Shown here: one piece after another, positions 5,001 to 18,934 of the stretch
Layout of the letters: the number at the start of each line of letters is the position of its first letter
Numbering within the stretch: the first letter of the stretch is position 1
DNA from: a virus
Virus record (IMG/VR): IMGVR_UViG_3300006224_000035
Span: 1-26,102 of that record
Strand: one strand, 5' to 3'
Length of the DNA: 26,102 bases
Position numbers and translations under genes: made by a program
Notes under the pieces: generated by a model
Seen by the model: the letters and a program-made list of their open reading frames with translations, nothing else
Database searches by the model: none
Told to the model about the DNA's origin: nothing

Positions 5001-5294
5001 ATGGCTGCCAAGCGCAAAGCGCCTAACAGGATGACAATGGAGCTAGACGATATACTAGAGCGCGTCACACGCGCCGAGGAGCAAGCGAAGGCTGCTACTG
5101 AACTGCTGACGGTTCGGCACTCGGAGACCGTCGATTACATGAGGTCGGTAGACTCCAGACTAGGTACGCTGGAGCAAGCTCTAGCCAAGTACACCGGGTT
5201 CTGGGGAGCCATCATGCTGATTTCCTCGGCAGTAGTTACGTGCGTCATGCTCGCCAAAGAGTTCCTGTTCAAGAAGTTCGGGATGGAAGGATAA
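5001..5294 (+). CDS. Small coiled-coil membrane protein (possible lysis or ejection accessory)
   Basis: This is a 97-residue product. Residues ~10-62 form a charged, heptad-patterned helix (ILERVTRAEEQAKAATELL and so on). One strongly hydrophobic span follows at ~67-90 (GFWGAIMLISSAVVTCVMLA), then a basic end (KEFLFKKFGMEG). This XhlA-like layout, a coiled coil followed by one C-terminal membrane span, is found among phage lysis accessory proteins but also in other small membrane proteins. The gene starts one base after the fibre gene stop, and its stop overlaps the next ATG (TAATG). A second, better holin candidate lies at 12966-13385, so calling this one a holin would be speculative. Confidence 0.65.
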   Translation: MAAKRKAPNRMTMELDDILERVTRAEEQAKAATELLTVRHSETVDYMRSVDSRLGTLEQALAKYTGFWGAIMLISSAVVTCVMLAKEFLFKKFGMEG

Positions 5295-6175
5295 TGGCCC
5301 TATCCAGCACACTCGCCGCCATGCTCGGATCCATCAAAGACAAGATGGACCCTAGCAGCGGATTCAGCACAGCAAAACTCCAGCCGCAAGACATGATGAC
5401 GGCGGGGGCGGCTCCTGCACCGCAGGGCGCGACCCCGTTCGCTCCACTCATGGCGCAGATGCCGCAGAGCGGCTTTGCTCGGCCCGAGGCCCAGCAGTGG
5501 ATGCAGCAGGCCCTCAGTAGTCCCTACATGCAAGGGTGGGGGAATGGTACTGGCGGCGCTTCTCCCGCCGCCCCGGGCTCCCCGGGCATCGCTCCGGGCG
5601 CTCCTTCGCCGACCGCTCCGGGCACAGCCGGACAAGTGTTCGGCCAGCTACAGGGACTCGTCAATCAGGCGAAACCTTCTGCGGGCGACAAGAGCAAGGA
5701 AGCCATCACGAACTTTGCTTCCATCGTGGGACCAGCGGCCCTGTCCGGTATGGGCGGCGCAGCCGGTGCCCTTGGCGGCGCTCTCGGTGGCGCATCAGCC
5801 CTCGGTCCTATTGGCGCTATGGTCGGTATGGGCCTTAATGTCATCAGCAAGATGTCTAGCTCCAGCAACGGCTGGCGCAACACAGGGCTTGACGAAGCCT
5901 ACATGAAGAAGATGGCTGCGCAGGCTGGCTGGAAGCGTACAGGAGGCAAGGGTGGCCTACGCTTCACGAAGAATGGTCAGGTAGTAAAGGGCATCGGTGC
6001 CGAGCAGCAGATGTTCGAAGATACCGTGAACTTGATCCGCTCGACCGGCCAGCTTCCTCCAAAGGTGAAGTCGCACGCAGGCACGCAGGCGTATCAGGCG
6101 CTCATCCAGTCCGGCATCTTCGGCCCGGAGATTACGCAGCAAGCAGTTGACAAGTACGGGACGGGCGGATGGTGA
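5294..6175 (+). CDS. Hypothetical virion protein with Gly/Ala-rich hydrophobic core
   Basis: This is a 293-residue product. I choose ATG 5294, which overlaps the previous stop (TAATG); the frame is open upstream, but that part shadows the membrane-protein gene. Residues ~20-125 are a Pro/Ala/Gly/Met-rich, probably unfolded segment with 'PGSPGIAPGAPSPTAPG'. Residues ~140-190 form a Gly/Ala-rich hydrophobic stretch (AALSGMGGAAGALGGALGGA) with GxxxG-type packing. The C-terminal ~100 residues are basic and folded-looking. A glycine-zipper membrane segment in a protein of the late operon fits an ejected or membrane-active virion component. No family is recognised. The last bases overlap the next gene. 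Confidence 0.6.
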   Translation: MALSSTLAAMLGSIKDKMDPSSGFSTAKLQPQDMMTAGAAPAPQGATPFAPLMAQMPQSGFARPEAQQWMQQALSSPYMQGWGNGTGGASPAAPGSPGIAPGAPSPTAPGTAGQVFGQLQGLVNQAKPSAGDKSKEAITNFASIVGPAALSGMGGAAGALGGALGGASALGPIGAMVGMGLNVISKMSSSSNGWRNTGLDEAYMKKMAAQAGWKRTGGKGGLRFTKNGQVVKGIGAEQQMFEDTVNLIRSTGQLPPKVKSHAGTQAYQALIQSGIFGPEITQQAVDKYGTGGW

Positions 6176-6402: not shown

Positions 6403-7407
6403 ATGGCTTGGGCAGACATTTTCAAGGGCGTCGGTGGCGCACTGAACACGGGCGCGAAAGCCCTCGGTGGCTGGGGCAACGTACTCCAGCTTGGCACGAG
6501 CCTGTACGGAGCGAACCGTCAGCAGCAGCAGGGCCAGCAGGCAGCCCAGCAGGCTGTGCAAGCGGCTACGCCCATCGGGTACGGCACAGGGTCTATGTAC
6601 GGTCAGACGACCGTGGACCCCCGCACTCGCCAGATGCAGTTCCAGTTTGGGCAGAATCCCTTTGCCCAACTCATGAACGTGGGCGGCCTCCAGTCCTTCT
6701 CCAACGCGTTCTCGGCCCCGGGCGCTGCCTACGGTGGCGCGGCCCCTGAGATTGCGCAGGCCGCACAGGGCATGTTCGGCCCGGGCTTGGAGCAGGAGGC
6801 GGCAGGCCGTCTCGGCATCCTTCGCCAGTTGGCCCAGCCCGAGGAACAGAGGGCATCGAACCAGCTAACAGACCGGCTGTTTGCCTCTGGCCGCTTGGGC
6901 GGCACGGGTGGAGCGGTCGAGCAGGAAGCTATGGCCCGGGCCCAGTCGGCAGCGGACCTCCAGCGCCAGCTTGCTTCGCAGGACTGGGCCTCTACCCGAG
7001 CCCAGAACCGCTTTCAGTCTGCGCTACAGGCAGTCGGTGCCGGTCAGGCAGGCGCGGCCCAGCAGTTCAACATGGGACAGGGCGCTATGGGCGGGCTGTC
7101 AGATATGTTCAAGATGCTCTTGCAGCAGGGCAATGTTGGTCTCGGCGCAGCTTCGGCCACGCCGTCCGACATCGCTGCGTTGCAGGCGGGAGCCAAAACG
7201 GCCCCGGGTGCGTTCGATGCAGGCGCAGCATGGTTGCAGAACTCCGGAGCCTTCGGTAAGATCGGAGACTGGATCGGCGGCAAGATGGGTATGCCTACTG
7301 CACAGCCCACGGCGACCGGCCAGTACGGCCCGATGGCCGGTGGTTACGCGGGAGGCACCTTCGCTCCCCAGCAGTACCAGTACAATACGCCCGTGAGGCC
7401 CTACTAA
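6403..7407 (+). CDS. Internal virion (ejection) protein candidate, Gln/Ala/Gly-rich
   Basis: This is a 334-residue product. The N-terminus (ADIFKGVGGALNTGAKALGG) is an amphipathic Gly-containing helix, followed by a Gln-rich stretch (ANRQQQQGQQAAQQAVQAAT). Long Ala/Gln-rich helices cover ~110-230, including RLGGTGGAVEQEAMARAQSA, a phrase of a type frequent in podoviral ejection proteins. The composition and the position as the first of three consecutive large helical genes before lysozyme resemble the T7 gp14-15-16 set, of which this would be the small gp14-like member. Its stop overlaps the next ATG (TAATG). The role is inferred from order and composition. Confidence 0.6.
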   Translation: MAWADIFKGVGGALNTGAKALGGWGNVLQLGTSLYGANRQQQQGQQAAQQAVQAATPIGYGTGSMYGQTTVDPRTRQMQFQFGQNPFAQLMNVGGLQSFSNAFSAPGAAYGGAAPEIAQAAQGMFGPGLEQEAAGRLGILRQLAQPEEQRASNQLTDRLFASGRLGGTGGAVEQEAMARAQSAADLQRQLASQDWASTRAQNRFQSALQAVGAGQAGAAQQFNMGQGAMGGLSDMFKMLLQQGNVGLGAASATPSDIAALQAGAKTAPGAFDAGAAWLQNSGAFGKIGDWIGGKMGMPTAQPTATGQYGPMAGGYAGGTFAPQQYQYNTPVRPY

Positions 7408-8699: not shown

Positions 8700-10717
8700 T
8701 GTCTGACGACAAGGACTATCAAGATTACCTTGAGTATCAGGCATACATCAAGGCTCAGAAGCGTCCGACTGCCCCGACCCGGGTAGACCGGATGCCCCAG
8801 ATGGGGGCGGTAAGTGCCGAACAGGCCCGGGTAGGTTTGGCTGGTGTGCCGTCTCCTATCTTCGGTGTGGCGCAGAAAGCCACCGGGCTAGGGGAAGGTA
8901 TGAGGGTACTGCCCGAGGGCGCTACAGCGGCCGTCACGGGCGCTGGCAGGGCCGTCCAAGAGGCTATACAGGGCAAGCCCGAGGAAGCCCTGACGCCCGA
9001 CGAGAGGGCCATCAAGGGTGGCGTGAGTACGGCTGTCGAACTGGCGCTGCCCATCAAGGGAGCCTCGCTCGCTAAGGTAGGCAAGGTCGCCAAGACAATG
9101 CTAGCCTCTGGCACCGCAGGAGCCTTCGGCGCGGCATCGCACTTCGACCCGGACGTGGAGAAGGCTTGGGAGTCGAACCTCGGCCTAGCAGTCGGTACGG
9201 GGCTGGGCATCATCTTGGGCCCGCTCGCCATGCTACCGGCTGGCGTCAAGAACTGGGCCACGGAGATTCTGCGCTCCCCGCCCACTCCTACCACGGCGAA
9301 GCTCATGCGTGAGTTGCGCCAAAGCAACATCTGGAAGTCTGCCGAGAAGCGACTGACCCTCGGCCAGTCTACCGGCGACGTGCGGATCGAACAGCAGGAA
9401 GCCCGCGTGCAAGCGCGACGGGCCAACAGCGTCTACAACCAGCAAGTCGAAACGGCAGAGCGCAACTTCAACAAGGTGCTTGCTAAGGTGGGCGGCCCGA
9501 CCGAGCGTGCCCCAGCCGACTTGGCTGTGGAACTCCGCGAGGCTCTGAACAAGGACCGAATCGCCCGTGCCAATTTGCGGAACAGCAAGTATGGTGGGGC
9601 GATAGACGAAGCCGAAGCCATCGCGAAGCAGGATCCTGCCGACGCTATGGGCGTCAAGACAGACAACTTCGCTACTACCCTGCGGGACTACAAGGTGTCT
9701 CGTGAGCAGTGGCAAGTGCTGGCAGACTCGGCTCCCCCGAAGTATCGGCGGGCGGTCGAGGAAGCACTCGGGATGCTGGAGAAGAACGACGGCCGGATGC
9801 AGCTTGGGGATATGATGAAGGTCCATCAGGCTCTCAACACGATGCGTCGTGGTCTGACGCGTGCCGAGAAAAGCGGCTCGACCCTATCAGGACCGGCGGC
9901 GGACATGAACCGCATGGCCCGTGACCTACAGGACTCGCTCCAGCGCGACATGACTTACATGGATGACGTGGTGACGAAGGCGAAGGAAGCGTTCGTGAAC
10001 CAGCCCGTGCCCGAAGGCGTGCGGGGGTTCGACCTCCCGGGCGTCCAGTATCAGGCAGCGTGGGACAAGTTCCGAGCAGCCCGGGCGGACTTCGCGGAGT
10101 CCATTCGTAAGGAAAAGTTCATAGAGGCACAGGTCATCGAAAAGCAGTTCGGGTTCCAGCCCGACAAGCCGGACGAAGCGTTCCGTGTGCTGCTCACGGC
10201 CCCGAAGCAGGACCAGATCCGGATGATCGACACCCTGAGCAAGCACTTCCCTGACACCCTCCGCGACATCAAGGCGTGGAAGTTGCAGGACGCTATGGAG
10301 CGGGCCTTTCGCCAGCAGGCGGCGGGCACTCAGCACGTCTTGAAAGCGGACGCCATGATTAAGGAAATCGCGCTTGGCGAGAACGAAGTCGCTGGCCGGA
10401 TGATGTGGTCCCCAGAGGAAATGCAGGACATCAAATCCGGTATCGCCTACATGCGCTTGATCCAGTCTAGGTCTGCGCTCAAAGACGCGGGCATTGAGCC
10501 GCAGCGCCTCTTTATGGCGGGTATCTCGCAGTCGGCACCGTTCTTGGCTGGGGCAGCCTACAAGTTGAAGGCAAACCCCAAGCTGGAGAAGTGGTTTTTC
10601 ACGGCGAAGGGTCGTGAAATGCTGAAGGCACTGGCGACGGCTAACCCTAACACGCCTGCGTTCGCGGCAGCACTGGGGTATGCGTCGTCCTTGACAGCGG
10701 ACGAACTGGCCGAGTAG
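8699..10717 (+). CDS. Large internal virion (ejection) protein candidate
   Basis: This is a 672-residue product, the largest in the window. I take ATG 8699, which overlaps the previous stop (TGATG) and follows AGGGGA. The N-terminus (KDYQDYLEYQAYIKAQ) and the start of the previous protein's tail share the 'DYxxYLxYxAYxxAQ' style of ejection-protein termini. Residues ~110-200 contain Gly/Ala-rich hydrophobic segments (AVGTGLGIILGPLAMLPAG) able to cross a membrane. The phrase 'LTLGQSTGDVRIEQQEARVQ' near ~225 is frequent in phage ejection and polyvalent proteins. Long helices fill the rest. No lytic transglycosylase motif (as in T7 gp16) was seen. It would be the gp15/gp16 counterpart that helps DNA across the cell envelope. 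Confidence 0.6.
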   Translation: MSDDKDYQDYLEYQAYIKAQKRPTAPTRVDRMPQMGAVSAEQARVGLAGVPSPIFGVAQKATGLGEGMRVLPEGATAAVTGAGRAVQEAIQGKPEEALTPDERAIKGGVSTAVELALPIKGASLAKVGKVAKTMLASGTAGAFGAASHFDPDVEKAWESNLGLAVGTGLGIILGPLAMLPAGVKNWATEILRSPPTPTTAKLMRELRQSNIWKSAEKRLTLGQSTGDVRIEQQEARVQARRANSVYNQQVETAERNFNKVLAKVGGPTERAPADLAVELREALNKDRIARANLRNSKYGGAIDEAEAIAKQDPADAMGVKTDNFATTLRDYKVSREQWQVLADSAPPKYRRAVEEALGMLEKNDGRMQLGDMMKVHQALNTMRRGLTRAEKSGSTLSGPAADMNRMARDLQDSLQRDMTYMDDVVTKAKEAFVNQPVPEGVRGFDLPGVQYQAAWDKFRAARADFAESIRKEKFIEAQVIEKQFGFQPDKPDEAFRVLLTAPKQDQIRMIDTLSKHFPDTLRDIKAWKLQDAMERAFRQQAAGTQHVLKADAMIKEIALGENEVAGRMMWSPEEMQDIKSGIAYMRLIQSRSALKDAGIEPQRLFMAGISQSAPFLAGAAYKLKANPKLEKWFFTAKGREMLKALATANPNTPAFAAALGYASSLTADELAE

Positions 10718-10746
10718 ACTTCACCTATCGTTCGCGGAGGGCACCA

Positions 10747-11208
10747 ATGGATCTAGCACGAGTACGGGCACTCCTGTCTCACCATGAGGGCAGGGTCAGG
10801 CACGTCTACAAGGACTCTCTTGGCTTCGACACCATCGGTGTTGGGCACCTTGTAGACAAGAGCAAGGGTGGTGGGCTTCCCGAGTCCATCATCGACGCTC
10901 TCCTGAATCACGACATGGGCGAGGCGTGGCACGCCTTGCAAGCAGCGCAGCCGTGGGTCGTGCGTCTTGACGACGTGAGGCAGGCTGTTCTGCTGGACAT
11001 GGCTTTCAATCTGGGACCAGAGCCGTTCGACCACGACGGCATCAAAGACTGGCCCATGTTCATTAAGCAAGTAGAGACTGGACGGTACGCCGAGGCGGCT
11101 GCGAATATGCGCTCGACGCTGTGGGCCAAGCAAGTTGGCAAGCGGGCAGAGCGACTGGCTTCGATGATGGAGTCAGGCAAGTGGCCCTCGGACGTGCCCA
11201 ATGTCTAA
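10747..11208 (+). CDS. Endolysin, T4-type lysozyme (glycoside hydrolase family 24)
   Basis: This is a 153-residue product of usual length for the family. The N-terminal catalytic region has Glu14 in 'SHHEGRVRHVYKD', Asp23 at the end of that phrase and Thr29 in 'GFDTIGVGH', matching the Glu11-Asp20-Thr26 triad of T4 lysozyme. The enzyme hydrolyses the N-acetylmuramic acid to N-acetylglucosamine bond of peptidoglycan. There is no signal peptide or signal-anchor, so it should need a holin to reach the wall; the only good holin candidate is the isolated gene at 12966-13385. GGAGG lies seven to eight bases before the ATG. The last 8 bases overlap the metallopeptidase gene. Confidence 0.95.
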   Translation: MDLARVRALLSHHEGRVRHVYKDSLGFDTIGVGHLVDKSKGGGLPESIIDALLNHDMGEAWHALQAAQPWVVRLDDVRQAVLLDMAFNLGPEPFDHDGIKDWPMFIKQVETGRYAEAAANMRSTLWAKQVGKRAERLASMMESGKWPSDVPNV

Positions 11209-11722
11209 GAGCCCAGCTTACGATCCGCAGCGGCAAGAAGTCTACCGGATGGAGAAGAAGGGCCTGTTCGGTCTGAACAGGACTCGTCTTACCCGGGCAG
11301 AGCATCGTCACCTGCTGTCCCTCGGGTGCGCCAAGTTCGGCATCAAGCCCCCTCGCTTGCTGTACAAGCCCGGGAAAGCGTGGGCCGGGTTATACGTGAG
11401 TGCCCCGGTGCCTAGTATAACGATGTCCACGACGTATGTAGGCGGGCTCTCCGCCATGACGTTGCTTCATGAACTAGCGCACCACATCGTCTACTGCTGC
11501 GACCTCACAGACAGGCTTGCCCCGCATGGCCCGGAGTTCGTGGGCGTGTATGGCGACCTGATGGAGTGCATGGGGTTCATCCCGTTCGGCTCGTGGGAAC
11601 TTCTCACGGAGCAGTTTCGTATCGCCCGCTTTGATACCGGCCTCATGACTCCAGCACAAGTCATGGACGCCATAAAAAAGAGGGCAGCCGAAGCTGCCCC
11701 AAAGTCTCCCCCCAAAAGCTAG
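11201..11722 (+). CDS. Zinc metallopeptidase-like protein (HExxH) next to endolysin
   Basis: This is a 173-residue product. A gluzincin/SprT-like core is seen: His90-Glu91-Leu-Ala-His94 in 'LLHELAHHIVY', with a likely third ligand at His109 in 'APHGPEF'. This resembles small phage and actinobacterial putative metallohydrolases with 'HELAHH...HGPEF'. There is no signal peptide and no known substrate-binding domain. It overlaps the lysozyme gene by 8 bases, so the two should be co-translated late. Possible roles are cutting peptide cross-links of the wall or processing a protein, but neither is shown. The Lys/Pro/Ala-rich tail is encoded over an intrinsic terminator that serves the opposite strand. 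Confidence 0.75.
   Translation: MSKSPAYDPQRQEVYRMEKKGLFGLNRTRLTRAEHRHLLSLGCAKFGIKPPRLLYKPGKAWAGLYVSAPVPSITMSTTYVGGLSAMTLLHELAHHIVYCCDLTDRLAPHGPEFVGVYGDLMECMGFIPFGSWELLTEQFRIARFDTGLMTPAQVMDAIKKRAAEAAPKSPPKS
11674..11699 (-). terminator. Intrinsic terminator of the leftward operon, inside the metallopeptidase gene
   Basis: Read leftward, a perfect 7-bp stem GGGCAGC/GCTGCCC closes a UUCG loop (the stem arms lie at 11693-11699 and 11682-11688). It is followed by TC and six T residues (11674-11679). UUCG-capped stems with a T run are classic rho-independent terminators. Read rightward, the hairpin is preceded by A residues and followed by CAAAGTC, so it should not stop rightward transcription. 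It lies 25-50 bases past the last leftward stop codon (11724-11726), within the coding sequence of the convergent metallopeptidase. Confidence 0.85.
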
Positions 11723-11723
11723 A

Positions 11724-12101
11724 CTAGTCCTCTGCTGGTTCACCAGCCGTCTTGTAATCCGCAGTGTAGCGGTGCGCTACGACGATGCGTGCCGGGTACT
11801 TGTCAACAGGCAGCCTCGGGTACACAATCGTCTCGTCCTGCCACACGTACTTGCTGCGGTACTTGAGGCCAAGAGCCTGCTTGACGTGATCCCATAGGGT
11901 TGCCGGGTACGACGCCAGCAGCCGAGGCTCGGTGTTCTCGCCCAACAGCCTCAGATGAGTGCTGAGAGCCATTGCTTGCCGGTGAGCAAGGTACTCTATG
12001 CTTGTGTCTACCGCGCCTATGATGTCCCGCTCCATCAGGAGCCCCACCGTGTAGCGGTGGACCGTCAACCGGACTTCCTCAGTCTTGTACGCAGTATCCA
12101 T
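11724..12101 (-). CDS. Hypothetical protein, last gene of leftward operon
   Basis: This is a 125-residue product. ATG at 12101 overlaps the stop of the exonuclease gene (TGATG) and follows GGAGGCAAG, which fixes the start. The protein is soluble-looking, with mixed helix and strand (EEVRLTVHRYTVGLLMERD, then the AVDTSIEYLAHRQAMALST helix). The second half has 'YPATLWDHVKQALGLKYRSK', which could be a DNA-contacting basic helix, and the acidic end is GEPAED. No family is recognised. It ends one base from the convergent metallopeptidase stop. Confidence 0.7.
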   Translation of the reverse strand: MDTAYKTEEVRLTVHRYTVGLLMERDIIGAVDTSIEYLAHRQAMALSTHLRLLGENTEPRLLASYPATLWDHVKQALGLKYRSKYVWQDETIVYPRLPVDKYPARIVVAHRYTADYKTAGEPAED

Positions 12102-12862
12102 CACTTGCCTCCGATGAGAGTCATCACGTTCTTGTTGCCCTTGACCACGCTGTAGCGACCCCGCAGCCACGTCCCGCAGCCCTGACACTGGAACCGCTGA
12201 TAAGCCTGCGTCTTAGTCCTCACCAGCCCTCGGGCTTGGAGCTTATGCGAACCGCACGTCGGACACGACGGCTTCCCGCCATCCCCGTCAAACAGGGGAG
12301 TGTTGGGATGCGTGTCGATCCACGGCAGCAGAGCGTAGTACAGTTCCTCAAGGGTCTGGATGTCGCCCATGTTGTACTCGCGCATCTCGGACCACGCTTT
12401 GCGCTTGCCGTTCATGCAGTCGATCCACAACTCGTGGCCGCGATTGCTAACCTTGCGGGTCAGCTTGAGTTCCTTCGCAAGATGGTCCATCTTGTTTGAG
12501 GCGAACCGAAAGCGCCGCTTGGCTACCTTGAGCAAGTCGATGCTGTGATACGGAGCAGGCGGAGCGAGACGGTACTTGACGAACTCCCGATTGAGAGTAG
12601 GCAAATCGAACCGTTCCCCGTTATAGGTCAGCACCGCATCCGCCTCATCCAGCAGGACGTGCATAGCCTTGATGGTAGCCTTGTGCCCGTGGTGGAACTC
12701 GGAGCGGAACAGGGGCTTACCCTTCGATCCCAGCCAGCGTGCTGAGAAGCACATGACCCGGCCGGTGTCGATAATCTGGTTGATGCCGATGTTCTGCTTG
12801 AACAGCCCCCACGCGTGGGCTGTGATCGGCGCAGTCTCAATGTCAAGAGCAAGTGTTTTCAC
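12101..12862 (-). CDS. DEDD-type 3'-5' exonuclease (RNase H fold) with C-terminal zinc ribbon
   Basis: This is a 253-residue product from GTG 12862. The DEDDy motifs are present: Exo I Asp7-x-Glu9 in 'LALDIETAP', Exo II around Asn81/Asp86 in 'LTYNGERFDLPTLN', and Exo III Tyr163-x3-Asp167 in 'REYNMGDIQTLEELY'. Residues ~200-229 form a Cys4 zinc ribbon (Cys200-x2-Cys203 and Cys226-x2-Cys229), which would bind nucleic acid. The family is close to predicted phage PolB-like exonucleases. It would degrade or process DNA or RNA ends during replication or repair. The frame stays open upstream, but the first 35 codons shadow a tiny membrane ORF. The start codon overlaps that ORF's stop (GTGA). Confidence 0.85.
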   Translation of the reverse strand: MKTLALDIETAPITAHAWGLFKQNIGINQIIDTGRVMCFSARWLGSKGKPLFRSEFHHGHKATIKAMHVLLDEADAVLTYNGERFDLPTLNREFVKYRLAPPAPYHSIDLLKVAKRRFRFASNKMDHLAKELKLTRKVSNRGHELWIDCMNGKRKAWSEMREYNMGDIQTLEELYYALLPWIDTHPNTPLFDGDGGKPSCPTCGSHKLQARGLVRTKTQAYQRFQCQGCGTWLRGRYSVVKGNKNVMTLIGGK

Positions 12863-12951
12863 TGCACAGCGCCCGTGACTGCGAAGATCAAGGTGGCGGC
12901 GGCCCATGCCGTCAGCACCATCACGGCTAGGATTGTTAACGTAAACTTCAT
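12859..12951 (-). CDS. Candidate 30-residue membrane peptide
   Basis: This small frame starts at ATG 12951 and ends in a TGA that overlaps the exonuclease GTG start (GTGA), the same coupling used at many junctions here. The peptide begins MKFTLTILAVMVLTAWAAAT and continues LIFAVTGAVQ, almost wholly one membrane span. Against it, no Shine-Dalgarno site precedes the ATG, and the gene lies head-to-head with the rightward holin gene 14 bases away. If it is not a gene, this stretch is the leader between the leftward and rightward starts. The function is unknown. Confidence 0.4.
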   Translation of the reverse strand: MKFTLTILAVMVLTAWAAATLIFAVTGAVQ

Positions 12952-12965
12952 GATGGGAGACATAC

Positions 12966-13385
12966 ATGGCCCTCGCGATTATTGAGAAGATCCTCGGTGG
13001 CGTAGCAGCCCCCGTGGTGGACTATTTCAAGGTGCGTGCTGAGAACGCGTCCCGTGAACGCCTGCGGAAGATCGAACTGGACGATGCTATTCATCGCAGG
13101 AAGGTCAGCCTCGTTACCGAGGGACTGCACGCCGACATGAACTGGGAAGTCGAGCTAGCCAAACAGGCTGCCTCGTCGTGGAAGGATGAGTACACTCTCA
13201 TCGTCGTATCCATCCCAGCCATTCTAGCGTTTGTCCGCACGTCGTTCCTCGATGGTCCCGCAATCGTCTCGGCAGGGTTTGCTGCGCTGGGCAATACGCC
13301 CCTGTGGTATCAGACAGTGCTCATAAGCCTGTTCCTCGCCACGGTCGGCATCCGCTGGTGGAGACGGTCGCTCTCCGACACGTAA
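12966..13385 (+). CDS. Holin-like membrane protein, rightward gene inside leftward operon
   Basis: This is a 139-residue product. A charged N-terminal half (ERLRKIELDDAIHRRKV) is followed by two hydrophobic spans at ~76-92 (YTLIVVSIPAILAFV) and ~113-130 (LWYQTVLISLFLATVGI) and a basic end (RWWRRSLSDT). The layout, with 'SSWKDE' before the first span and 'GFAALGNTPLWYQ' before the second, resembles the phage proteins annotated as 3TM-type (GTA-like) holins. GGGAGA lies seven bases before ATG 12966. All adjoining genes face the other way. It is the most likely partner of the lysozyme at 10747 and would permeabilise the inner membrane. Its 3' 162 bases overlap a leftward frame, and a rightward terminator follows at 13725. 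Confidence 0.75.
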   Translation: MALAIIEKILGGVAAPVVDYFKVRAENASRERLRKIELDDAIHRRKVSLVTEGLHADMNWEVELAKQAASSWKDEYTLIVVSIPAILAFVRTSFLDGPAIVSAGFAALGNTPLWYQTVLISLFLATVGIRWWRRSLSDT

Positions 13386-13505
13386 GGCCGGATGGCGCTT
13401 CACGTACTGGCACTTCTTCTCGTGCCGTAGCAGGGCCCGCACGAAGGCGTCCGTCCATCCTCGGCGGGCCACTGCCTCAGCGCGTAGGATGTCCCTATCG
13501 CTCAC
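13224..13505 (-). CDS. Small hypothetical protein, convergently overlapping the holin gene
   Basis: This is a 93-residue product from GTG 13505, which overlaps the preceding stop by 11 bases. The first ~45 residues (SDRDILRAEAVARRGWTDAF, then VRALLRHEKK) have the 'RGWTxAxxRxLL' pattern seen in small phage proteins that often sit among accessory genes. The remainder is basic, low in hydrophobic order and encoded opposite the holin's membrane spans, so it may be a read-on tail after loss of an earlier stop. Function is unknown. The N-terminal half is the better-supported part. Confidence 0.5.
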   Translation of the reverse strand: MSDRDILRAEAVARRGWTDAFVRALLRHEKKCQYVKRHPALRVGERPSPPADADRGEEQAYEHCLIPQGRIAQRSKPCRDDCGTIEERRADKR

Positions 13506-13710
13506 TGGCCTGTGCCACGTCGGCGCGGTTGTAGACCTCTGCGGCCTCCTGCCGTGCCCTCTCCGTGCGCTCGGCCGCTTCCTGCTGCCCAAGCTGGACG
13601 CCCTGTATAGCCACGGTAAGGGACTGGATCTTGTCCATCAACTGCGCCTTCTGGGCCCACGCCTCAGTCAACTGCCTCTGGAGGCCCTCAACAGTATCCT
13701 TAGCACTCAC
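13495..13710 (-). CDS. Small coiled-coil protein
   Basis: This is a 71-residue product from GTG 13710, overlapping the upstream TGA as GTGA. A strong GGAGGAG lies a few bases before it. Nearly the whole protein is one predicted coiled coil (VEGLQRQLTEAWAQKAQLMD, continuing KIQSLTVAIQGVQLGQQEAAERTERARQEAAE). It resembles small phage coiled-coil proteins of unknown role. The rightward terminator at 13725 lies just upstream, on the opposite strand. Confidence 0.7.
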   Translation of the reverse strand: MSAKDTVEGLQRQLTEAWAQKAQLMDKIQSLTVAIQGVQLGQQEAAERTERARQEAAEVYNRADVAQASER

Positions 13711-13979
13711 TTCTTCTCCTCCTGCGGCCCCTTATAGGGGCCGTTTTCGTTTGTGACACCCTTCAACGCCTCTCGGTTCAGAATCGCTGACGCGAGAGAC
13801 AAGAAATACTGCGAGCAATTGCTCGACACTGACACAATAGGATGCTCGTCTTTGATCCGGAGGACGAACGCCAGCGTGTCGATCCTGTCCATGTTGGACA
13901 TCATCCAACGTATTTGCATTTCGGGAGTCAGCCGCGCAATCGTGTTGCCCAGCGGAGTCACCTTGTTGTCATCGGCCAA
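13707..13979 (-). CDS. Hypothetical protein, 90 residues
   Basis: ATG 13979 overlaps the preceding gene by 11 bases. The product is soluble (TIARLTPEMQIRWMMSNMDR) with a hydrophobic middle ('SQYFLSLASAILNREAL') and a polar, basic-acidic tail (GPYKGPQEEKK). The tail codons coincide with a rightward terminator hairpin on the other strand, which explains the 'NGPYKGP' phrase. No family is recognised. Its arrangement in a chain of overlapping small genes argues that it is translated. Confidence 0.6.
   Translation of the reverse strand: MADDNKVTPLGNTIARLTPEMQIRWMMSNMDRIDTLAFVLRIKDEHPIVSVSSNCSQYFLSLASAILNREALKGVTNENGPYKGPQEEKK
13725..13747 (+). terminator. Rightward intrinsic terminator downstream of the holin gene
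   Basis: The stem is CGGCCCC/GGGGCCG (13725-13731 and 13737-13743) with loop TTATA, followed by TTTT-C-G-TTT. The T-rich side faces right, so it should end rightward transcription. Read leftward, no T run follows; instead the AGGAGG of the next leftward gene follows. It lies about 340 bases past the holin stop and within the 3' end of a leftward gene. It is the only good rightward terminator seen between the structural genes and the right end of the window. Confidence 0.75.
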
Positions 13980-14130: not shown

Positions 14131-14402
14131 CGCAGCACCGTCCACACCAGCAGCCGCAGGGCCTCGCTGAACAGAAATAGAACAAGCATCCACATGAACG
14201 TGAAGCCTACGCGCCATAGCCACTTGATGACACGGTTCTTAGCCATAGTGTCAGCTTGCTTGCGCCGCCACTCAAGGCGGCAGACCATCCGCTGCTGTCT
14301 CATCGTCTCCACTTCATCAGCATAGCAAGGGTACTTCCCTTTGTCAATGATTGTCTGTAGAGAAGGCCGTAGGACGCAGACACCGAACGGGTTAATCGCC
14401 AT
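14127..14402 (-). CDS. Small membrane protein, 91 residues
   Basis: ATG 14402 overlaps the preceding gene by 11 bases. The N-terminal part is soluble with two Cys and a 'YADEVETMRQQRM' helix. A basic region (RRKQADTMAKNRVIKWLWRV) leads into one membrane span at ~65-88 (FTFMWMLVLFLFSEALRLLV). The positive residues before the span predict a cytoplasmic N-terminus. The stop overlaps the next start as ATGA. Function is unknown. Confidence 0.65.
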   Translation of the reverse strand: MAINPFGVCVLRPSLQTIIDKGKYPCYADEVETMRQQRMVCRLEWRRKQADTMAKNRVIKWLWRVGFTFMWMLVLFLFSEALRLLVWTVLR

Positions 14403-17553: not shown

Positions 17554-17869
17554 TGCGCAACCCCGTCCAGTGTTTCGTTGCGGTCCAATGGTCCGGGTTC
17601 ACACAGAGTGTGTTCCCGCACACATTAACCAGCGTGTTGTCCCCCAGATGGCCGTACTTATCTTCCCACAGGATGCGGTGTACCGGCTCGCGCTTGCCGC
17701 TAGGCCCCACAGCAACCCCGTACTGGTAGAAGCCCCACTCGTCGGTGCGGATGTTTCCTTTCCACACGCGGCATCCTACCTTGCCTTTCGACGTGTCAGG
17801 CCGGATCTTGTCCTTGAGGCGGCCCAGCATCCGGTAGTGCTTGAGCCTAGCCTTAATCCGTGGAGTCAT
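17537..17869 (-). CDS. HNH (His-Me finger) endonuclease with zinc-binding loop
   Basis: This is a 110-residue product. The C-terminal half has the homing-type nuclease pattern: 'VHRILWEDKYG' with His64 as likely general base, then 'VNVCGNTLCVNPDHW' with Cys84, Cys89, Asn91 and His94 as zinc and metal ligands. Cys33 in 'VGCRVWKG' could be another ligand. Such free-standing HNH enzymes cut DNA at a site near their own gene and spread among phages. The gene sits between the resolvase (17-base overlap) and a membrane-protein gene. No intron or intein boundary is visible. Confidence 0.85.
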   Translation of the reverse strand: MTPRIKARLKHYRMLGRLKDKIRPDTSKGKVGCRVWKGNIRTDEWGFYQYGVAVGPSGKREPVHRILWEDKYGHLGDNTLVNVCGNTLCVNPDHWTATKHWTGLRNGKAA

Positions 17870-18062
17870 TGCTGTCCTCCGTGACTAGCTCTACGATGAA
17901 AGCTATCGTAACCAACAGGTTGCCTATAGCACCGACGCCGAGCAGTCCTTGTGTCAAGCCTACGTTGTCGATGACCCACGCCAGTCCTGCAATGAACCCG
18001 AAGGTTACGGACAGGGCCATCAAGCCTAGACCTACGCCAAAGATGATGTCTTGGATCTTCAT
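17853..18062 (-). CDS. Small two-span membrane protein
   Basis: This is a 69-residue product from ATG 18062, overlapping the exonuclease stop as ATGA (an ATG five codons earlier lies inside that gene). Two hydrophobic helices are clear: residues ~5-30 (IIFGVGLGLMALSVTFGFIA) and ~38-62 (LTQGLLGVGAIGNLLVTIAF). The C-terminus is acidic (ELVTEDSNDSTD). It resembles small phage membrane proteins made early, whose roles are mostly unknown. A superinfection or membrane-remodelling role is only a guess. Confidence 0.7.
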   Translation of the reverse strand: MKIQDIIFGVGLGLMALSVTFGFIAGLAWVIDNVGLTQGLLGVGAIGNLLVTIAFIVELVTEDSNDSTD

Positions 18063-18934
18063 TCGGGGGCCCTCCATATATCGCCGCGATAGCGGCTCAT
18101 GTGTAGCAACTGGCCCGTCTCAAGAGCCACGCTCTCCGCTGTGCGCCCTGCGTAGGGACATCCCTTTCGGGACAGCGACTCTTTGAACTCAGCTAGCACC
18201 CACTCGTACATGACCTTCTCTGTCATGTCCTCGGTCACTAGCTGCTCGGCCTTCTTCTCACCGGACCGATAGCATCCTACCACATTGTCGGTAGCATCGC
18301 CAGTAATCATTTGCCGGTAGAAGTTCACAAGAGCCTGCTTCTCGGTCAGCAACTCGTAGGAGTTCCGCCGGTAGTTGAACAGCAGCCCCGGCACCGTGCG
18401 CAAGTCCTTGTCCTGCGACACGATCATTACCCGTGAGGGATCGTAGTCCAGCGACGCAGCAATACACGCAACCTCGTCGTCGGCTTCGTGCCCGTCCACC
18501 TTCGTAGCCTTCCAGCGGCTCATCAGGTAGCGTCGTATCGCTCCGTAGTGGACCGGCTTCTCAAGAGCCAGCCGGTTGCCCTTGTAGGGCTTGATCTTAG
18601 CTATCTCATCCCGGTGATTGCCCTTGCCGGTGATGAAGCACTCTACGCTGTCGAAGATGTAGCCGTCGCCGTCCAGCTTGTTTTCGATGCGGAGGATTTG
18701 CCGCTTCACCAGTGCGAGAGCGTTCTCCACTGGCTCGGGTTCGGCTCGGGCAACGACGGCTTCCATCTTCCAGCCGTCAGGGAGCATGGCTTCCGTGGCG
18801 TCCATGTCCTCCCGTGACGTGCTGATCCCCTCTACGTACTCGTCCCCATTCGACGCAGCCCAATCGTAGAAAGTCTTTTGCGCGGCGAAGCCGCACCCGT
18901 AGACCATGCTATCGGCGTCGAACAGGATTCTCAT
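18059..18934 (-). CDS. 5'-3' exonuclease / flap endonuclease (T7 gp6-like role)
   Basis: This is a 291-residue product, similar in size to T7 gp6 (about 300). The FEN-family acidic centres are visible: Asp6-x-Asp8 in 'ILFDADSMVYG', Lys115/Lys118 in 'IKPYKGNR' (nucleic-acid arch), Glu150/Asp152/Asp153 in 'DGHEADDEVA', Asp175/Asp177 in 'VSQDKDLRTVPG', and Asp213/Asp216 in 'ITGDATDNVVG'. It would remove RNA primers and resect or degrade DNA 5' ends, and so supply recombination ends. Neighbouring polymerase, resolvase and SSB-like genes fit. The C-terminal ~60 residues are less conserved. The start overlaps the following-strand gene by four bases (ATGA). Confidence 0.92.
   Translation of the reverse strand: MRILFDADSMVYGCGFAAQKTFYDWAASNGDEYVEGISTSREDMDATEAMLPDGWKMEAVVARAEPEPVENALALVKRQILRIENKLDGDGYIFDSVECFITGKGNHRDEIAKIKPYKGNRLALEKPVHYGAIRRYLMSRWKATKVDGHEADDEVACIAASLDYDPSRVMIVSQDKDLRTVPGLLFNYRRNSYELLTEKQALVNFYRQMITGDATDNVVGCYRSGEKKAEQLVTEDMTEKVMYEWVLAEFKESLSRKGCPYAGRTAESVALETGQLLHMSRYRGDIWRAPE

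Follow-up and report, generated by a model that had tools for sequence, protein, structure and literature searches.

How is a holin gene transcribed when genes of the opposite strand part it from the other lysis genes? This question is raised by a linear 26.1 kb virus contig (IMG/VR record IMGVR_UViG_3300006224_000035), which was analysed over its whole length and is here called the window; its left part carries late genes read rightward and its right part replication genes read leftward (polymerase, DnaB helicase, primase, exonuclease and endonuclease VII). A lysozyme gene (the endolysin; 10747-11208, + strand; PF00959 Phage_lysozyme, E 4e-10) and a SprT-like metallopeptidase gene (11201-11722, +) that overlaps the lysozyme stop are followed by two leftward genes, g11724 (11724-12101, -; 125 amino acids), the last of the leftward unit, and a DNA polymerase exonuclease subunit (EXO; 12101-12862, -), joined by a TGATG overlap. 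Only then comes a rightward holin candidate of 139 amino acids (12966-13385, +; PHROG 2524, 4e-22) with a GGGAG ribosome-binding site 6 nt ahead of its ATG (12951-12965, +). This layout of a lysozyme/SprT pair, two leftward genes and a lone rightward transmembrane (TM) gene had been described in an earlier note and was borne out, with a refinement of one gene start: EXO was started at GTG 12862 rather than at the mechanical ATG 12967 because its homologues begin at that residue, which leaves a gap of 103 bp to the holin ATG at 12966. A sister phage shares this unusual arrangement, with another gene in the slot, a hint that early and late RNAs are read across one another here, and we consider two convergent, interlocked transcription units rather probable for the region.

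Terminators were scanned from 10.0 to 15.5 kb on both strands by a hairpin-plus-T-tail score (threshold d of at least 0), and exactly two sites passed, where shuffled sequence yields 0.1. An intrinsic terminator acting leftward only (11682-11699, -; d 13.7) lies inside the 3' coding end of the SprT-like gene, where it encodes KKRAAEAA, and one acting rightward only (13725-13743, +; d 28.8) lies inside the 3' coding end of g13707, an early gene beyond the holin (13707-13979, -). Neither has a T run on its opposite side. The two are crossed, each standing beyond the other strand's gene, so that the predicted units would overlap by about 2.06 kb. No rightward intrinsic terminator reached the threshold between SprT and the holin. 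The earlier note had seen a hairpin at 11.68 kb with a T run on the leftward side only and had placed the first strong rightward terminator after the holin, and the scan recovered both. The locus shares two features with noncontiguous operons: related genes on one strand are parted by opposite-strand genes, an order conserved in the sister phage, and no rightward terminator lies ahead of the distal gene. A single transcript across all these genes and reciprocal regulation, by interference or RNase III, would be the other two.

The sister phage (record G013) is represented by three near-identical contigs (L108-L110) from three samples; it is 63% identical to the window in DNA polymerase and 64% in the holin, and the two form a clade in the polymerase tree with a support of 98/100. 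Its gene order is lysozyme (57% identical to that of the window), SprT (L108 4653-5228, 44%), a leftward gene, holin and an 87-amino-acid homologue of g13707 (L108 6396-6659), which is the same split. The slot is occupied by a metallophosphoesterase-like gene (PF00149, sub-threshold) in place of EXO and g11724, and EXO was not found in the 19.9 kb contig. Both one-way terminators recur at homologous sites, the leftward-only one at G013 5567-5584 (d 47), again in the 3' end of SprT encoding KKRAAEAA, and the rightward-only one at G013 6836-6853 (d 24.5) in the 3' end of the g13707 homologue.

Almost all of the other relatives that were examined have the gene ahead of the holin on the holin's strand; the few opposite-strand open reading frames (ORFs) there, for example those in L120 (63 amino acids) and in L122 and L126 (45-78), are short and are either overlapped by longer rightward ORFs or placed elsewhere. 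Because these relatives keep endolysin and holin together, gene order indicates that the split is derived and persistent and is not an assembly error. EXO stands beyond the holin, within the early unit, in four relatives (G014, G015, L006, G003), as does the phosphoesterase in L143 and L144, and the EXO of the window clusters in the tree with L014/L015, apart from those four. The split is probably of single origin and older than the divergence of the window from G013, and the cargo of the slot has changed since. That SprT plus EXO had simply been inserted to form the gap was considered and rejected, since lysozyme, an HExxH protein and the holin are contiguous in L122/G014 and the holin is followed by SprT in L014. 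The SprT-like genes are therefore part of the late strand, and the leftward genes are the only ones foreign to it. As a separate observation, the metallophosphoesterase family stands directly behind a same-strand lysozyme in L155, L156, L159 and about 30 other phage loci, and because so many loci place it there it may have a link to lysis and not be cargo picked up at random.

In the arrangement that we propose, the late rightward RNA would carry lysozyme and SprT, pass the leftward-only terminator at 11.69 kb, cross g11724 and EXO in antisense as 1.24 kb of untranslated RNA, and supply the holin, translated from its own Shine-Dalgarno site, before stopping at 13.73 kb. The early leftward RNA, for which 14319 is the nearest consensus promoter, would pass the rightward-only terminator, run through the holin in antisense, express EXO and g11724 and end at 11.69 kb. 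This reciprocal half was missed by the earlier note: to reach EXO the early RNA would have to cross the holin, which may thus be as much an antisense target as EXO. The existence of both transcripts, the supply of the holin by the late one and any mutual silencing are inferred from the sequence. By analogy with noncontiguous operons (PMC7154746, PMC11087260), such silencing could plausibly come about through colliding polymerases or RNase III. The proposal of the earlier note, a single late transcript that would also couple holin timing to late transcription and silence both early genes, is supported in part, above all by the split and the paired one-way terminators of the sister phage. The family may in general let late RNA read on into the early strand, because leftward-only terminators end the early unit in the contiguous relatives G001 and G015 as well, and in that case a holin that became separated could have kept its expression.

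Promoters were scored with a sigma-70 weight matrix under E. coli rules, which may not be those of the host. On the early strand of the window four leftward sites (25331, 21156, 15829 and 14319) scored at least 14.9, where shuffles give 0.025, and since this is far above chance, early transcription probably runs leftward under sigma-70 control, with a host that probably reads sigma-70-type promoters early. The site nearest EXO (TTGACA-17-TATGCT with TG; 14319-14347, -) would reach that gene through holin antisense, and no leftward terminator lies in the path from 14319 to about 11.69 kb. No strong sigma-70-like rightward site was found in the 14 kb from 11.7 to 26.1 kb, and none between SprT and the holin, including just before 12966. 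A candidate lysis promoter (TTGACA-18-TAGACT; 10691-10720, +) stands just ahead of the lysozyme and is not conserved in the sister phage.

Several points nevertheless weigh against two interlocked units. The left terminator of the window is modest at d 13.7, and Rho could halt the 1.24-kb untranslated antisense RNA; the rut-like excess of C over G in the antisense gap is weak (C 30.2%, G 28.3%), though compatible with Rho action. The early strand of G013 lacks a comparable excess of strong sites, so that the promoter argument applies to the window only, and in the sister phage a perfect TATAAT, albeit without a good -35, stands 38 nt ahead of the holin. A phage sigma factor or activator that recognizes another motif could be at work. 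Finally, a distant homologue of the holin in Vibrio phage 1.015.O (L225, 7275-7637, -) belongs to the early/replication strand, in contrast to the rest of those examined.

One alternative is a neutral rearrangement, in which an early cassette was inserted behind SprT and ahead of the holin and has been kept by chance, with read-through that occurs but has no regulatory effect on EXO, g11724 or lysis timing. In its favour, the two phages differ in what the slot holds, EXO was acquired from another lineage according to its tree, and 3' ends that overlap may be usual in the family, given the leftward-only terminators of the contiguous G001 and G015; against this, the layout and both one-way terminators have persisted across about 36% protein divergence. 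This neutral reading fits the proposed transcript layout too and is therefore judged separately from it; we regard it as a real possibility, somewhat below an even chance. A reciprocal lysis switch, in which early RNA would restrain the holin by antisense while making EXO or other cargo and late RNA would shut the cargo off and free the holin, can be offered only tentatively and is, in our estimate, unlikely. If true, lysis timing would be set by the ratio of early to late transcription across the 2 kb overlap between the one-way terminators.

A further alternative is that the holin forms a separate unit whose own promoter is hidden in the 5' coding end of EXO or of the metallophosphoesterase and is read by a modified host polymerase or through a weak sigma-70 site, the split being neutral for timing. 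A good Shine-Dalgarno site precedes the holin in both phages, the TATAAT of the sister phage would suit such a promoter, and family members without an RNA polymerase may use altered sigma factors, by analogy with phiEco32 (PMC9960094). The best rightward scores upstream of the holin are, however, ordinary in both genomes (66th and 67th percentile), the 14 kb early region is devoid of strong rightward sites, and in the sister phage the divergent start codons of metallophosphoesterase and holin are only 17 bp apart. A motif shared by the regions upstream of both holins was sought and not found. We rate a separate holin promoter as rather unlikely, if worth keeping in mind.

Both transcription models presuppose that the product of 12966-13385 is a holin, and this identification is supported by its sequence and its neighbours. 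The protein is small, with predicted TM segments at about 77-95 and 111-129 and a hydrophobic N-terminus. Its family directly follows a lysozyme in L113, L114 and L006, a GH108 hydrolase in L115, L125 and L127 and an M15/VanY peptidase in L117, L119 and L124, and two isolates, Pseudomonas phage IME180 and Vibrio phage K396, likewise have it behind a lysozyme or endolysin. Varied endolysins adjoin it in at least 10 lineages, and such a constant place beside exchangeable, unrelated endolysins matches what is expected of a holin. The holin call of the earlier note gains support from this synteny, while its description of the gene as the only good candidate held in part: other TM ORFs exist in the window (5001-5294, +; 17853-18077, -), and 12966-13385 is the sole one with endolysin synteny. 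It is improbable that the gene encodes some other late membrane protein. Such a reading would accommodate the early-strand homologue of Vibrio phage 1.015.O and the lack of a model naming a holin in Pfam and NCBIfam, whether a single query or 13 relatives were searched; PF11351 (GTA_holin_3TM) in particular was unmatched by the family, and Foldseek with a low-confidence structure model gave no informative fold match. Set against it are the TM segments, the endolysin neighbours and the homologue in Marinomonas phage YY, which did not match PF11351 either but carries the annotation DUF3154; TeaA, the holin of ICP1, has been assigned to that family (PMC7182436). An assembly chimera joining unrelated pieces, conceivable in a metagenomic contig, was rejected as practically negligible, as it is contradicted by the recurrence of the same order in three sister contigs from three samples, by tight start/stop overlaps at the junctions and by even base composition.

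Two further occurrences of the holin family were observed. In the Ackermannviridae phage phiEa2809 (L223, 2423-3037) the domain is part of a 204-amino-acid protein that has no annotated function and is encoded beside the DNA polymerase gene. The sole match in the genome collection was a contig of an archaeal metagenome-assembled genome labelled Nitrososphaera (L139, QCWB01000003), which is probably a misbinned phage.

Noncontiguous operons are already known in bacteria and phages (PMC7154746, PMC11087260), and the arrangement proposed here is therefore not new in kind; what the lysis-module version would add is reciprocal interruption. In the menE-menC-MW1733-ytkD operon of Staphylococcus aureus (Saenz-Lahoya 2019, reviewed in PMC7154746), genes are likewise parted by an opposite gene, giving the overlapping sense and antisense mRNAs that we predict; our case differs in being a phage lysis module, known from its sequence alone, in which both strands would be interrupted. 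Phage 80alpha likewise carries an antisense gene within a phage operon that bears on a switch between life-cycle stages (ith-1/tha-1 and three others; PMC11087260). It is a temperate phage with a lysogeny/lysis switch, whereas the switch predicted here is between early and late stages, with replication or cargo genes in antisense and the holin as the parted gene. In 80alpha antisense transcription contributed little, and most of the effect came from the protein encoded (PMC11087260), which cautions against assuming strong silencing here. Long overlapping transcripts that are expected to exclude each other also characterize the excludon of Listeria (PMC7154746), where the overlap is due to a long 5' untranslated region, unlike the convergent reading past one-way terminators considered here. 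A likeness in genome plan exists with the PA11-like Zobellviridae IME180 and T2S2, whose late strand ends in an endolysin and this holin family, whose early strand converges on it and which have no RNA polymerase gene; in contrast to the window, endolysin and holin are direct neighbours there, without an early gene between them. No published antisense-split lysis module was found in the literature searched, a partial collection.

Conservation of the layout in the sister phage raises it above a curiosity. If the transcripts match the anatomy, gene order and two one-way terminators alone would wire holin expression to the balance of early and late transcription, a simple and testable idea of lysis timing for virulent phages that use host RNA polymerase only. 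Early cargo looks swappable in the slot that separates the left terminator from the holin, an exonuclease here and a phosphoesterase in the sister, and whatever the slot holds would, as predicted, automatically be covered by late antisense RNA.

Dependence on the host polymerase is expected from the affiliation of the phage. The PolA-type DNA polymerase of the window is nearest, among isolates, to Zobellviridae Vibrio phages (41% identity to phage 1.015.O), followed by VpV262 (38%), so that its polymerase and replication genes are related to those of this family. For Zobellviridae, gene clusters on both strands, two in all, and the lack of an RNA polymerase are reported (PMC9960094; PMC6775973 for SIO1 and VpV262), and the host polymerase is thus expected to transcribe both strands. 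A Pfam search of 12 related contigs gave no RNA polymerase match but carries no weight, as the controls were unmatched too; a podophage RNA polymerase used as tblastn query had no match in related contigs, the window itself being a 26 kb fragment. Taken jointly with the two-unit reading, we favour a Zobellviridae-like podophage that depends on host RNA polymerase.

Of the remaining features near the lysis genes, the SprT-like protein has the HExxH motif (HELAHH) and matches PF10263 below threshold (E 1e-4; 22.2 bits against a cut-off of 25.6), and as a lone query against viral contigs it returned no relatives. EXO is assigned to PHROG 403 (4e-86) and RNase_H_2, and g11724 had no Pfam match and no relative among the viral contigs searched. 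The possible small peptide that the earlier note had mentioned in the interval before the holin was located at 12859-12963 (-), a candidate membrane peptide of 31-34 amino acids with one TM segment (TM score 1.71) whose TGA overlaps the GTG of EXO; it lacks a good Shine-Dalgarno site, and no counterpart was seen in relatives. A leftward ORF of 71 amino acids (13495-13710, -), whose coding status is unsure, lies between the holin and g13707 and is absent from the sister phage. In Vibrio phage K396 (L221) three leftward genes (610-1388, -) stand among rightward late genes, just upstream of an endolysin and a holin-family gene, and could be a second instance of a lysis region that contains antisense genes. 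At the left end of the window, two long rightward ORFs in different frames (13-555 and 219-1430, +) overlap by 337 bp and both match in L010; they are possibly overlapping genes or the product of a frameshift.

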